A stretch of 33,529 nucleotides of DNA from Fimbriimonadaceae bacterium (GTDB lineage Bacteria; Armatimonadota; Fimbriimonadia; Fimbriimonadales; Fimbriimonadaceae). The stretch is taken from NCBI GenBank assembly GCA_025455775.1, contig JALOLT010000036.1, positions 1-33,529 on the forward strand. The letters are read 5' to 3'. Shown here in pieces: positions 3,713 through 10,976 of this stretch (position 1 is its first letter; each line of letters begins with the position of its first letter). The notes beneath the pieces were generated by a model. The model ran no database searches. It was not told the DNA's origin and saw only the letters and a program-made list of their open reading frames with translations. Made by a program: the position numbers and the translations under genes.

Positions 3713-5385
<1,673 letters not shown>

Positions 5386-5415: not shown

Positions 5416-5823
5416 CTAGGATGGTTTTGCCGAATCTTTCTCGATCTTTTCAACCGATTGAACGGTTGCCGCGTACCTTTGGCTGACCTGAACGAGTGCC
5501 TCGTTCATCTTGTCTGGGTCTGTCTTTTGGGGATCAAACTCAACCGTCGCTGTTAGGGCGTAGCGGTCTGTTTCTACTTTATGAATACCTTCCACTCTGA
5601 CCAGAGTGGCGCGAACCTCGCCAGGACAGGAGGCTCACGTCATGCCAGGGACGCTCAACACGACGCGGCTGAGCGATGTCCCTGGTTGAACTGGTTCGCC
5701 GATTGATTCGACAACATCGGAGCGAGAGCCCCGCGAAACCATCGAACCAATCGCCACTACCAAAAGAATTCCCCCAATTACGTAGGGCACTTGCTTGTTC
5801 GCTCGTTTAGATTGATAGCTCAT
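5416..5823 (-). CDS. Putative selenoprotein: membrane-anchored HMA-domain protein with in-frame UGA (Sec63)
   Basis: Read through one UGA (5635-5637), this frame gives 135 residues. There is a hydrophobic anchor at ~12-30 (VPYVIGGILLVVAIGSMV), a short linker, and a heavy-metal-associated (MerP/CopZ-like) domain from ~53. The metal motif reads VPGMT-U-ASC, with UGA replacing the first Cys of the canonical GMTCxxC. After the UGA the domain continues normally: PGEVRATLVRVEGIHKVE, then TATVEFDP, then a final helix, stopping at TAG (5416-5418). A 7-bp hairpin with a GGUC loop lies 32 nt after the UGA. The gene starts 16 nt after the M42 peptidase stop, so it is probably co-transcribed. HMA domains bind or move soft metals such as copper or mercury, but a selenol-thiol pair could instead be redox active. 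The alternatives are a nonsense mutation or a sequencing error in a Cys codon. Confidence 0.8.
5592..5609 (-). promoter_or_regulatory. Putative bacterial SECIS hairpin
   Basis: On the mRNA strand CCACUCU pairs perfectly with AGAGUGG around a GGUC tetraloop. The first loop G is preceded by 32 nt after the UGA. Known bacterial SECIS elements lie just downstream of the UGA inside the coding region and carry conserved G residues in a small apical loop; the Escherichia coli fdhF element has GGUC in its loop. Length, position and loop therefore all fit SelB binding. No bulged U is evident in the stem. Confidence 0.7.
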
Positions 5824-5839: not shown

Positions 5840-6895
5840 TTAGTCTACTGCGTAGCTGTAATCGCCTAGGTGGGCGTTTTCAATGTATGCCGCCAGCAGA
5901 TCGATAGAAGCCTGCACGTCTCGGGAGTGAACCGTTTCGTTCACCGTGTGAACATAGCGTGTGGGAATCGAGAGAGTAAAGGCAGGGACACCCCCATTCT
6001 GCCTTTGAATCCCACCAGCATCTGTGCCACCCATCGGGAGCAGTTCCATTTGGTAGGGAATGCCGTTTTGGATCGCAAGTTCCCGAAAGTGAGCCACTAA
6101 TTTGGGGTGACAAATGAGAGAGCCGTCCATAAACTTTATCGCCGTGCCTTCGCCGAGCTTGGTCACAGAGTTCTCCTCTGGGATTCCAGGGAAGTCGTTG
6201 GCAAGGGTGATGTCGATCGCAACAGCGATGTCCGGCTTAATGGCACTGGCACTCGCCGTCGCCCCTCTGAGGCCAATCTCCTCCTGAACCGTTGCCACTG
6301 CATAGACTTCGACCCCATTGCTCTTCGCTTTTTTCATGGCTTCGATCATCACGAAGACTGCCACTCGGTCGTCCATTGCCTTGCATGTAAAGAGATCTCC
6401 CATTTGCTGGAATTGGCGATTCATCGTGACCATGTCACCCACTGACACCTTTTTCTTGGCTGTTTCTCCATCGAGGCCGAGATCAATAAAAAAGTCCTCA
6501 GTGGTGAGGGCTTTGCCTCTTTCTTCGGCGCTTAGCATATGGATCGGTTTTACGCCTGGCATCATCACGCCATTTAGAGGCCCTTCGCTGGTGTGGACAA
6601 AGACTCTTTGGGCTGGCATTGTGCGGGCATCCCAACCACCGACCGGATGAATCCTCAAAAATCCCTTGTCGCTAATGTGCTTCACCACAAAGCCGATCTC
6701 GTCCATGTGGGCAGCCAGCATCAGTTTCTTGCCAGTCCCTGTGTCAGACTTTTTGAGGGCGATCACGTTGCCCATAGCATCGACACTGATGTCGCACAAG
6801 CCCTTTAACTCGCGAATGACGATTTTTCGAATCAAGTCCTCTTGGCCAGGAACGCCATGAGCCTCTGTGAGCTCTTTGAGCAAAGCGATATTCAT
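5840..6895 (-). CDS. M42-family metalloaminopeptidase
   Basis: A co-catalytic di-zinc (or cobalt) aminopeptidase/endoglucanase-like protein of the M42 family, probably a cytoplasmic peptide-degrading enzyme that forms large oligomers. The 351 residues are normal for the family. Visible ligands are His63 and Asp65 in AAHMDEIG, Asp175 in KAMDDR, the catalytic and metal glutamates in QEEIGLRG (205-206), Asp228 in AIDIT and His316 in TRYVHTVNE. I choose the ATG at 6895 (MNIALLKELTEAHGVPGQE) because it matches the family N-terminus. An in-frame start at 6922 would overlap the upstream cyclase by 8 bp. It sits 19 nt after the GGDEF gene and 16 nt before the HMA selenoprotein-like gene. Confidence 0.93.
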   Translation of the reverse strand: MNIALLKELTEAHGVPGQEDLIRKIVIRELKGLCDISVDAMGNVIALKKSDTGTGKKLMLAAHMDEIGFVVKHISDKGFLRIHPVGGWDARTMPAQRVFVHTSEGPLNGVMMPGVKPIHMLSAEERGKALTTEDFFIDLGLDGETAKKKVSVGDMVTMNRQFQQMGDLFTCKAMDDRVAVFVMIEAMKKAKSNGVEVYAVATVQEEIGLRGATASASAIKPDIAVAIDITLANDFPGIPEENSVTKLGEGTAIKFMDGSLICHPKLVAHFRELAIQNGIPYQMELLPMGGTDAGGIQRQNGGVPAFTLSIPTRYVHTVNETVHSRDVQASIDLLAAYIENAHLGDYSYAVD

Positions 6896-6914
6896 GCCCT
6901 TGTAGCTATACCAG

Positions 6915-9900
6915 CTAGGCAACTTGTTGTGTCGCGCCAGAAGGATCAGATGAGTCTGATGCTGCCCAGAGTGTGACGCGGTTTCGCCCCGATTCTTTGC
7001 TGCGATAGAGGGCCTTGTCAGCCCCCTCGATCAGGTCTTGCTTTCTCTGGGTCGAGCCATCCAGCATCGCCACTCCGAAGCTCGCTGTCACAGGACGATG
7101 AGCCCAATCTCGCGCTTCAAAGGCAGAACGACAAACTTCGGCCAAAGCGAGTGTCTCCTCAGGATCTAGCCCGACGACGACTACCACAAACTCTTCTCCC
7201 CCATATCGAGCGACAAGGTGCGGCTCTGGTACGGAAGCGGTGAGAAGAGCTGCGACCCCTCGCAAGACTTCATCACCAGCAGGGTGGCCAAAACTGTCGT
7301 TATACTGCTTAAACTTATCGACATCCATCAGGATGACCGAAAGAGGAGTCCCATCTTGTTGGCATTTGGCGAACTGTTCAGTCAGATACTCCTGGAAAAC
7401 CTTGTGGTTTTTTAGCCCAGTGAGGCCATCTGTACTCGCCAGCGCCGTCAGCCTTTGGTTAGCAACTTGCAGCTCTTCTCGCTTGATTTCCAGCTCAATG
7501 TTTGCTTCGTTGATCTGAAGCATCTGGTGTTCAATCTGTTCCTGGTAGTTTCTGCGTTCCGTGATGTCCTGGAAGAAGATCGAGAGGCCAGAGTCCGTGT
7601 TGTAGATTCGATACTCCATCCACGTTTCCTCCTCGATCGAGTAGCTTTCCCAAGTCCTCCACTCCTTTGTATGCTTGGTAAGCTCGCAGAGTTCTCGGAG
7701 CTCTAGGCTGGTATCACCCTGGAAGACCTCCCACACGTCTCTGCCGATCAAGAGTTCGACAGGGCGTCCCAGATACTCTGCGGCAGTTTCGTTGATGTAG
7801 GTGATGACATCGTCTCCATTCACGGACAGGAAGTAGTCCGAAATACTCTCGAGGATATCTACCATGTCGCGGTGAGCTTGCTCGAGCATGAGTTCCGCCT
7901 CCTTTTCGCGAGTGATATCGATTGTGGTTCCTCGATAACCCAAAAAGACACCGGCAGAATCGAACTTGGCAACCCCATTGGATCGAAGCCAAATCGGTGC
8001 GCCAGAGGCGGTTGCTCCTTGATAGATCAGTTCCCGGAAGTCGTTCTTGGTTTGAACCAGGGCTGCCATGAGTCGCAGAATTCTTTCCTGGTCACTAGGA
8101 TGGACAGTCTCCAGGCATGACTTTCCAGTGAGTTCCTGGGGCCTGGTTCCAAGAACTTCGGTTACCTTGTCGCTTATGAAGGAGATCACTAGTTCTGAGT
8201 CAGTCTCCCAAATGAATTCACCCGATGCGTCGATAACGTCTCTCAGCCTTCTCTCGCTTTCTTTAATCAGACTTTCCGTTTTCTTTCGCTCCGTGATGTC
8301 CTCAACAGACCCAACCATACGGATTGGCTCACCTTCCTCATCAGTAAGGGCCATGGCCCTCATCTGAATCCATTGAGGCTCTTTCTCGTTTGGCGGAAGC
8401 CGATATTCAATCTGAATTTGCTGGCCGGGGCATTCCCACTGTTCCGCAATCCTTTCTCGCACAGCCTGACTATCGTCTGGGTGAACATTCTGGAGGAAGA
8501 CTGCTGGGCGGTAAGGCTCCTCGTCCGGTGGCACGCGCAGTGCTTCGAGACATTTGGTAGAACAGTAAAACTCGCCTGTTACCAGATTCCAGTCCCAGAT
8601 CCCGACGGAAGCAGCCTGGACGGCAAGCTCAAATCGCTCTTCACTGTCCCGAACCCTTTTTTCGATCGTTCTGCGTGAGGTGATGTCCTCCGTCATCATA
8701 ATCACACCGCCTATTTCGCCACTGTGGTCAAACCAGGGCCGCACTTCCCATTTCATCCAGAATGCGTCTCCTCCTGGCCCCAGATAAAGATCTTCGTCGC
8801 TCCGCAAGATCTCGCCCATCAGAGCAGACTCAAAGACGGACTCCCAACCGCTGGGAAGGACTTGCAGACCCGAGAATGGACTCACCCCGACCACTGTCTC
8901 AGGATCCAATTCGTACTGCGAGCACCACTTCAGCGAAGCAGCCAATGTCGAGAAGTTGCGGTCAAACATCGCCAAAGGCAAGGGTGAGTGCTCGACAAAT
9001 GCTCGCAGGCGTGCTTCATTTGCTCGAATCTCGTTGGATTGGGCCCGCTCCGTCGTGATGTCATGGACTCGTGCCAAGACAAATTCTGGCGAATTCCCGT
9101 CGATCACCAAAGGAGCGAGAACGAGCTCAGCCCAGCGTTCGACCCCCCCTGTATCGATCCGAACAATTCTCTCGATTCCGTTGTTTTGGATCAAGACGCG
9201 CTGGACAGTTTTCAGCGGAACGTCGAGGTCAGAGAGGCGAACCTTCGAAACTGGATGCTGCGGAGTGGATAAGAACTGGGCGAGAGCATCGTTGGCAAAG
9301 ACCACGTCGCCTACTTCATTCAGGATTGCGACTCCGTCGATCGATTGCTCTGCCACCATCGACAGGAGCTTCAGGCGATGCTCCCGCTCTTGTTGCTGGC
9401 CGACCTCGTGACCCATCGCCACGTATCCCAAAGCTTGACTATCCTTTGTAACGATCCGCGAAAAGGTGAGCTGCACTGGGATGCGTTCGCCTTCTTGTGA
9501 GATGAGCGACAAGGTCATCTCTGAGCCTTCGCGATCGATGCACAAATCGAACAAACTGCGGCCAGATTGTTCGAGGTAAGAAAAGACCTCTGCTTCGGCC
9601 AAGAGGGAAGAGATCTTCCTGGCAGAGCCAAGCTCTTCATTCGTGAGCTTGAGCTTCTGAGAGGCACTCCGGTTTAGACCAGTCAGGTTTCCGGAAAGAT
9701 CCGTCGTGAGAATTAGGTACTCCGTGGAGTTTAAGATCGCTTCTTGCGTCGAAGCGAGTCGCTGGTTGTCGCTCGCAGCGCGAGACTGCTCTGTCGAGTC
9801 AGTGGCGCAGCCGATCCCTCCGACAATATCTCCCGTTGAACCCCTTAGGGGGAAGAGCTCAATGATGAGCACTCTCGGTTCAAATCCGGCTCGATCAAAG

Positions 9901-10976
9901 GCCCATTCGAACCTCTGAGTCATTCCCTCTTCCAATACGTTCCTAAGCGCAAGCGTCAGATCAAAGCCATTTGTCGATGTTCCGAGGACATCCTGGATCG
10001 GGTGGAGCAAGGCATAGTGAGTGGGAATCCCATAGGTCTGAGACATCTGAGGGTTCCATTCAAAGACCATTTGTTCGGTATCGAACGTAAAACATCCCAC
10101 CGGAAGCCCATCAAAGAGCGATTGGAAGCGACGGGAGGCGTGGTGATGCAGCTCGGTCTGGAGTTTCATGTCATCCAAAGCTTCGCTTAGGGCTTCCTCG
10201 CGCTCCTGCAGCTTTTCAATGGCTGAGTTCAAGTCACAATTAATCGCGTTTGCTTCTGCGTTGCTCTCATCGAGCGACCGCCCCATTTCCAAAGTGCGGA
10301 AGGTCTCGGATCTGAGCTTGAGAAGCAAGGGAAGCTGCACAAAGAACAGAACGGATATGGAGATGGCAACACACAAGAGAGCCCCTTTCTGCGCCTCTTG
10401 TTGGGCCAGGTGGTGACCCGAGGCAGCCATCGACTCAACCGCCGAAATGAGCCGATCCAGCTGTCGGCGGTACTGCCAGTTCTGAACTCGAATCTGGTTA
10501 AAGTCTGGATACTGTTCTGGCTTGCGAAGAGCTAGCTCTGCCTGATCGATGGAACCAGCGACCAGCGAAAGTCTGTTTTTGAGTTGGCTGAGCCCTGTTT
10601 CGACTCCAGAAGGGTCGGCAGAACTCAGAGATTTGAAGCTCTTGAGCATGAGGCCAAGCTGAGCGTGCCACTGGCTGACTTGCTTCATCTTTTGGTTCAG
10701 GGATTGAGCTACTTGGAGGCGTAAGCCTGTCTGACTGGCAAGAGTTTCCAGTTGGTCCAGGTCTCCAAAAATCTGGCGATTAGCCGAGCGGGCCTCAAGG
10801 ATCTGCCGAGTTGTGCTTGCTGCGACGAGTGAGGCCTGCGATGCTTTCGCGCTCGCCACGCTATTGGAGGCAACCAACAAGCAAATAGCTGTGAGTGAGG
10901 CAACAAAAGCGGCTGCCGCCCAAAAGGCAATCCTCTGAACCTTCTTGGCAGAGTTTACGAGGGATGATTGACTCAC
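6915..10976 (-). CDS. Membrane diguanylate cyclase with about seven PAS domains
   Basis: A 1353-residue sensor. It has two membrane segments (~17-39 and ~198-221) bracketing a helical extracytoplasmic region, then a coiled coil (~222-275) and about seven consecutive PAS/PAC modules from ~285 to ~1140 (for example FDGLPVGCFTFDTEQMVFEW, VIDASGEFIWETDSELVISF and ILESISDYFLSVNGDDVITY). A short coiled coil leads to a GGDEF domain with the active-site signature GGEEF at 1259-1263, which predicts synthesis of cyclic di-GMP. The positions five residues before GGEEF read PEPH rather than RxxD, so the inhibitory I-site appears absent. The start is GTG. No EAL domain is present. The gene diverges from trxB and leads the minus-strand group. 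Confidence 0.92.
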   Translation of the reverse strand: MSQSSLVNSAKKVQRIAFWAAAAFVASLTAICLLVASNSVASAKASQASLVAASTTRQILEARSANRQIFGDLDQLETLASQTGLRLQVAQSLNQKMKQVSQWHAQLGLMLKSFKSLSSADPSGVETGLSQLKNRLSLVAGSIDQAELALRKPEQYPDFNQIRVQNWQYRRQLDRLISAVESMAASGHHLAQQEAQKGALLCVAISISVLFFVQLPLLLKLRSETFRTLEMGRSLDESNAEANAINCDLNSAIEKLQEREEALSEALDDMKLQTELHHHASRRFQSLFDGLPVGCFTFDTEQMVFEWNPQMSQTYGIPTHYALLHPIQDVLGTSTNGFDLTLALRNVLEEGMTQRFEWAFDRAGFEPRVLIIELFPLRGSTGDIVGGIGCATDSTEQSRAASDNQRLASTQEAILNSTEYLILTTDLSGNLTGLNRSASQKLKLTNEELGSARKISSLLAEAEVFSYLEQSGRSLFDLCIDREGSEMTLSLISQEGERIPVQLTFSRIVTKDSQALGYVAMGHEVGQQQEREHRLKLLSMVAEQSIDGVAILNEVGDVVFANDALAQFLSTPQHPVSKVRLSDLDVPLKTVQRVLIQNNGIERIVRIDTGGVERWAELVLAPLVIDGNSPEFVLARVHDITTERAQSNEIRANEARLRAFVEHSPLPLAMFDRNFSTLAASLKWCSQYELDPETVVGVSPFSGLQVLPSGWESVFESALMGEILRSDEDLYLGPGGDAFWMKWEVRPWFDHSGEIGGVIMMTEDITSRRTIEKRVRDSEERFELAVQAASVGIWDWNLVTGEFYCSTKCLEALRVPPDEEPYRPAVFLQNVHPDDSQAVRERIAEQWECPGQQIQIEYRLPPNEKEPQWIQMRAMALTDEEGEPIRMVGSVEDITERKKTESLIKESERRLRDVIDASGEFIWETDSELVISFISDKVTEVLGTRPQELTGKSCLETVHPSDQERILRLMAALVQTKNDFRELIYQGATASGAPIWLRSNGVAKFDSAGVFLGYRGTTIDITREKEAELMLEQAHRDMVDILESISDYFLSVNGDDVITYINETAAEYLGRPVELLIGRDVWEVFQGDTSLELRELCELTKHTKEWRTWESYSIEEETWMEYRIYNTDSGLSIFFQDITERRNYQEQIEHQMLQINEANIELEIKREELQVANQRLTALASTDGLTGLKNHKVFQEYLTEQFAKCQQDGTPLSVILMDVDKFKQYNDSFGHPAGDEVLRGVAALLTASVPEPHLVARYGGEEFVVVVVGLDPEETLALAEVCRSAFEARDWAHRPVTASFGVAMLDGSTQRKQDLIEGADKALYRSKESGRNRVTLWAASDSSDPSGATQQVA

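Follow-up and report, generated by a model that had tools for sequence, protein, structure and literature searches.

A putative membrane-anchored HMA selenoprotein with a single selenocysteine in a Fimbriimonadaceae genome

The locus and its interrupted frame

The stretch of DNA analysed here in full, referred to as the window, comprises 33,529 nucleotides from a member of the Fimbriimonadaceae whose genome (G000, the source genome) amounts to 2.99 Mb and is 98% complete. On the minus strand of the window, between a gene for an M42 aminopeptidase and pyrG, which encodes CTP synthase, lies a short frame interrupted by a single TGA (Table 1). Translation from 5823 to 5416 gives 62 codons, the TGA (5637-5635), 72 further codons and a TAG, the read-through product being MSYQ...VPGMT*ASCPGEV...KPS*. 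The TGA stands where the signature GMTCxxC has its first Cys, so the motif would be UASC, with one Sec. Retranslation reproduced exactly the frame given in an earlier sequence-only reading of the locus, which had also noted that the TGA falls at a Cys position of an HMA domain.

Table 1. Positions in the window of the putative selenoprotein gene, its parts and its neighbours
Feature	Position	Strand	Basis or remark
Putative selenoprotein gene	5416..5823	-	ATG at 5823, TAG at 5418-5416; 135-residue read-through product; PF00403 across TGA; AlphaFold2 model
In-frame UGA, codon 63, first ligand of GMT-U-ASC-P	5635..5637	-	TGA at the same codon in G009, G037 and G024; TGC in G006
SECIS-type hairpin CCACUCU-GGUC-AGAGUGG	5592..5609	-	Fold, covariation, synonymous-recoding null
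HMA domain (beta-alpha-beta-beta-alpha-beta), residues 55-111, with putative Sec63/Cys66 ligand loop	5491..5661	-	PF00403; AlphaFold2
N-terminal membrane-spanning anchor (predicted), residues 12-30 (VPYVIGGILLVVAIGSMVS), following a basic N-terminus	5734..5790	-	Hydropathy 2.1 over 19 residues
M42 aminopeptidase gene, upstream	5840..6922	-	16 nt before the selenoprotein start codon; neighbour kept at five orthologous loci
CTP synthase gene (pyrG), downstream	3713..5359	-	Neighbour; thought to be functionally unrelated

The assignment to the HMA proteins was borne out when the read-through product was searched, as PF00403 matched residues 55-111 with 47 bits against a gathering score of 24.8, and in a direct scan of the genome the same family scored 38.7 bits, again over its cut-off, with '1 TGA' inside the match. 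The protein has the beta-alpha-beta-beta-alpha-beta fold and the GMxCxxC loop of the family, with a putative Sec for the first Cys. In the AlphaFold2 model the fold (E51-57, H66-74, E80-86, E91-96, H103-113, E120-127) has a pLDDT of about 96 and Sec63, modelled as Cys, lies together with Cys66 at the start of helix 1. The best PDB match of the model was oxidised MerP (1osd; TM 0.95 by target, rmsd 1.0, 37% identity). In several orthologues the transmembrane anchor is replaced by a lipoprotein-like signal peptide with GC or AC at its end and, because both arrangements would place it there, the HMA domain is predicted, by eye and from hydropathy, to lie outside the cytoplasmic membrane.

Neither neighbour of the gene in the window is a metal gene, the two being those for the M42 peptidase and CTP synthase. 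On its other side the M42 gene adjoins a gene (6915-10976) for a protein of 1353 residues in which a GGDEF domain and as many as six PAS matches were found. The source genome has a single MerT match elsewhere, on contig C130 (L004), in a MerT-HMA fusion that has Cys as its ligands (IDCASC) and is a possible partner of the selenoprotein.

Conservation of the UGA, the hairpin and the selenocysteine machinery

Clear orthologues were found in five of the 85 genomes of the family sample, the source genome included, with E-values from 7e-58 to 2e-47 and the next match at 4e-16, a gap that exists partly by construction because the profile was built from those five orthologues. Each of the five genes directly follows an M42 aminopeptidase gene on its own strand, and the orthologues are therefore found at one locus. 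The identical codon is TGA in four species belonging to three genera (G000, G009, G037 and G024) and TGC in the fifth orthologue, G006. Since four species share the TGA at one codon with a conserved downstream frame, chance does not account for it. Past the TGA dN was lower than dS in every comparison that allowed an estimate of dS (dN 0.28-0.46, dS 0.64-1.20, for the six pairs with estimable dS not near saturation), and this part of the frame is under purifying selection. The sequence-only reading had pointed to homologues with Cys or UGA at position 63 as favourable signs, and to varied stop codons with a decayed downstream frame as contrary ones; four close relatives, counting the window gene, have UGA and one has TGC, there is no other stop and the frame downstream is intact. 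The protein of G021, considered as a further TGA case, was rejected as it is a Cys protein of which the TGA is the natural end. A scan of genome contigs with the read-through protein found only ordinary Cys MerP/HMA relatives, back-translated peptide patterns being unable to match UGA.

A bSECIS model has been described (PMC13188914) in which the loop is 3-9 nt, the stem 4-16 bp, the distance from UGA to loop 16-37 nt, G occurs in the first two loop positions and the MFE is <= -7.5. The window hairpin fits this model, with a 7-bp stem, a 4-nt GGUC loop, 32 nt from UGA to loop and a free energy of -8.9 kcal/mol. The loop sequence GGUC is also that of the apical loop of the E. coli fdhF SECIS. 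When the 60 nt from the UGA were folded, the hairpin was part of the minimum-energy structure in all four UGA orthologues, and it was absent from that of the Cys orthologue, G006. Across nine homologous UGA sequences, which are related to each other, 95.2% of the hairpin cells are paired and four of the seven stem pairs have changed on both sides, giving a covariation score of 0.635 as against <=0.222 with the partner slid. When the window sequence was recoded synonymously, 101 of 20,000 recodings had a GGUC hairpin with 6 bp or more, and such a hairpin was the best one in none of the 85 Cys HMA controls from the phylum. The free energy of the hairpin is by itself unexceptional, 81 of 1000 synonymous recodings folding as well, and because it does not separate the window sequence from its recodings it is the particular GGUC hairpin, with its covariation, that carries the argument. 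The SECIS hairpin that the sequence-only reading named as a condition of Sec insertion is matched here by a GGUC hairpin with compensatory changes. No Rfam family reached its gathering score over the window.

The genes for selenocysteine synthesis and insertion, selA to selD, which had been proposed as a check, are all present in the same genome. Matches to selA (472.7 bits), selB (346 bits) and selD (348 bits) exceed their curated cut-offs, and the tRNA-Sec was found both by Rfam (68 bits) and by ARAGORN, which called it tRNA-SeC with anticodon TCA. Across the phylum selA was present in eight of the nine genomes with a small or fused UGA-HMA protein as against 142 of all 291, an association with a Fisher p of 0.015 in a set of related genomes whose kinship is uncorrected; within the family alone it was not significant (p 0.11), and by itself it is modest. 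The exception among the nine is G212 (88% complete), in which selA and selB were undetected despite its UGA-HMA protein.

The Sec machinery, the conservation of the UGA and the covariation of the hairpin all support what had been proposed from the letters of the locus, namely that this is a selenoprotein. It is very likely indeed that UGA63 is read as selenocysteine, and the reading of the gene as a recoded HMA selenoprotein is given a probability of roughly 0.9, on genomic evidence.

Proposed function and alternative readings

In the mechanism proposed, the GGUC-loop hairpin would direct SelB and Sec-tRNA(Sec) to decode UGA63 as selenocysteine, and without such decoding translation would end after 62 residues. 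The full product would be a membrane-anchored, outward-facing, MerP-like HMA selenoprotein in which Sec63 and Cys66 (UxxC) may bind metal as a pair, in the place taken by CxxC in MerP, CopZ and the Cys orthologue. A soft metal ion would most probably be captured there and then passed on or sequestered. To judge from fold and site, a role in metal binding is probable, and any one particular metal can be put forward with less assurance than that role; Hg(II) and Cu(I) are the likeliest candidates, since the closest folds are those of MerP and CopZ and a MerT-like domain is joined to the HMA domain in one relative.

The main alternative, though an unlikely one, is that Sec is indeed inserted into a protein whose work is mainly thiol/selenol redox chemistry of an oxidoreductase-like kind, and not metal carriage. 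UxxC is common among the redox motifs of bacterial selenoproteins, and most uncharacterised selenoprotein families are held to be redox-active (PMC13188914), but the fold and motif are those of HMA/MerP proteins and not thioredoxin-like, GMTxxxC is the metal loop of HMA domains, and the domain fused in the relative just mentioned is of a transporter type. A metal-binding selenoprotein is the preferred reading. It is much less likely that the UGA acts as a selenium switch, with both products of importance, a 62-residue form made under selenium shortage and the full form under ample supply. Every Sec UGA competes with termination and the truncated form would retain the membrane anchor, but the N-terminal parts of the orthologues, made up of a transmembrane anchor or lipoprotein-like signal and a variable linker, are not conserved in sequence, which makes a conserved role for the short form unlikely.

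That the UGA has been reassigned to sense, or is read through by a near-cognate tRNA without selenium, is very improbable. Basal read-through exists in bacteria, although no support for either process was found at this locus; TGA terminates eight of the 24 evident genes of the window and none of their 9,882 codons is an internal TGA, so that outside this gene TGA serves as a normal stop in the window, and reassignment was rejected. A complete Sec machinery and a position that alternates with Cys, the usual partner of Sec, likewise argue against reading without selenium. Least probable of all is a pseudogene created by a nonsense mutation, or an error of assembly, since a lone TGA in an open frame would fit one point change or error, but its independent conservation at the same codon in related genomes (four species, three genera), the purifying selection past it and the covarying hairpin led to the rejection of both.

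Read as a selenoprotein, the gene exemplifies a family that is invisible in annotations because ordinary gene callers truncate the protein to a fragment of 62 residues. Natural pairs of Sec and Cys orthologues occupy the same chromosomal position, and what is gained from selenium in a metal site is therefore directly testable; candidate gains are in affinity for mercury or copper, in protection from oxidation and in the kinetics of transfer.

Known selenoproteins and relatives in the phylum

The sequence-only reading was right that HMA/MerP-type selenoproteins had been reported. The GOS survey (PMC2398784) predicted from metagenomes the selenoproteins 'Mercuric transport protein MerP' and 'Putative mercuric transport protein', with two sequences each, and a 2026 review (PMC13188914) has an entry 'Metal-binding protein (putative mercuric reductase)' with the motif UxxU and 2 Sec, corresponding to NF041115, as well as UxxC cation-transporting ATPases and MerT-type proteins. 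The GOS proteins resemble that of the window in being described as of mercury type, a likeness of description, as the motif is not given there.

NF041115 is the best NCBIfam match (50.4 bits, under the curated cut-off of 95) and shares with the window protein a small HMA-type domain with Sec at ligand positions, but it has two Sec (UxxU) where the window protein would have one (UxxC), and its model covers 74 positions whereas the window protein has 135 residues and an N-terminal membrane anchor. The MerT/CopZ fusion-like heavy metal transport selenoprotein (NF045683), likewise the HMA domain of a metal-transport selenoprotein, matched over the HMA part only, its 33.4 bits being far from the cut-off of 375, and the window protein is without a MerT part; G212 does have the MerT-HMA architecture with UGA, yet it too falls below the cut-offs. 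MerP (TIGR02052; PDB 1osd, 1afi) has in common with the window protein the fold, the position of the GMTCxxC loop and a presumed extracytoplasmic location, and the score against its model was 48.9 bits, under the curated cut-off of 92.55. However, MerP is soluble with a Cys as first ligand, whereas the window protein is predicted to be anchored with Sec there, and the window gene, beside those for the M42 peptidase and pyrG, does not stand in a mer operon. The E1-E2 cation-transporting ATPase selenoprotein (PMC13188914) shares the Sec motif UxxC, but is a large P-type ATPase and not a stand-alone domain. The table of that review contains neither a stand-alone anchored single-Sec HMA entry nor a UxxxU motif, and neither a UxxxU HMA motif nor selenoproteins in this lineage were described in the papers found by searches made without the lineage name. 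HMA-type selenoproteins are thus already known; what is new is the predicted stand-alone, anchored, single-Sec (UxxC) domain that falls below the cut-offs of the NF041115, NF045683 and MerP models, and it would add a subfamily to the few known metal-type selenoproteins.

The 291 genomes of the phylum sample were searched for HMA proteins with UGA at a ligand position. A second UxxC type was found in G141 and G132, with a hairpin like GCCUC-CGUGAAA-GAGGC, 17 nt from the UGA; in these sequences (L186 1102, L187 1156) the hairpin has a 7-nt CGUGAAA loop and the sequence of the stem differs between the two genomes, pairing being kept. The motif GMx-U-PxG-U-P (UxxxU), with two UGAs 12 nt apart, occurs in G094, G213 and G141 (two copies), and the same type of motif with Cys at the second place (UxxxC) in G132 and G212. 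The UGA-containing HMA domain of G212 (L189 628-1290) makes up the C-terminal portion of a fusion with a MerT-like domain, which scored 121 bits against MerTP_fusion, the cut-off being 180. In the UxxxU proteins (L185 1690-1704; L190 1108-1122; L191 and L192, minus strand) one GGUC hairpin follows both UGAs.

It is an evenly balanced question whether the phylum has radiated its own HMA selenoproteins, comprising the anchored UxxC type (GGUC), the second UxxC type (CGUGAAA) and a UxxxU/UxxxC type in which one hairpin serves two UGAs. If it has, selenols would provide both metal ligands of the UxxxU proteins, in a loop that exceeds that of classical HMA sites by one residue; UxxxU would be a Sec motif so far unlisted among HMA proteins, and the phylum would have an extracytoplasmic system that handles soft metals by means of selenium. 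The UxxxU relatives also pose a question of decoding, in that one SECIS would serve two close UGAs.

A P-type ATPase of G127 (L195, C382, minus strand) has GMT-UGA-SSC in its N-terminal HMA domain, and in that genome selB was found and selA was not seen. In G132 and G141 (L188 2-601; L191, minus strand) the HMA domain of UxxxU/UxxxC type has a conserved region (MRGTLACLGCDLKKAHG...) fused to its N-terminal side.
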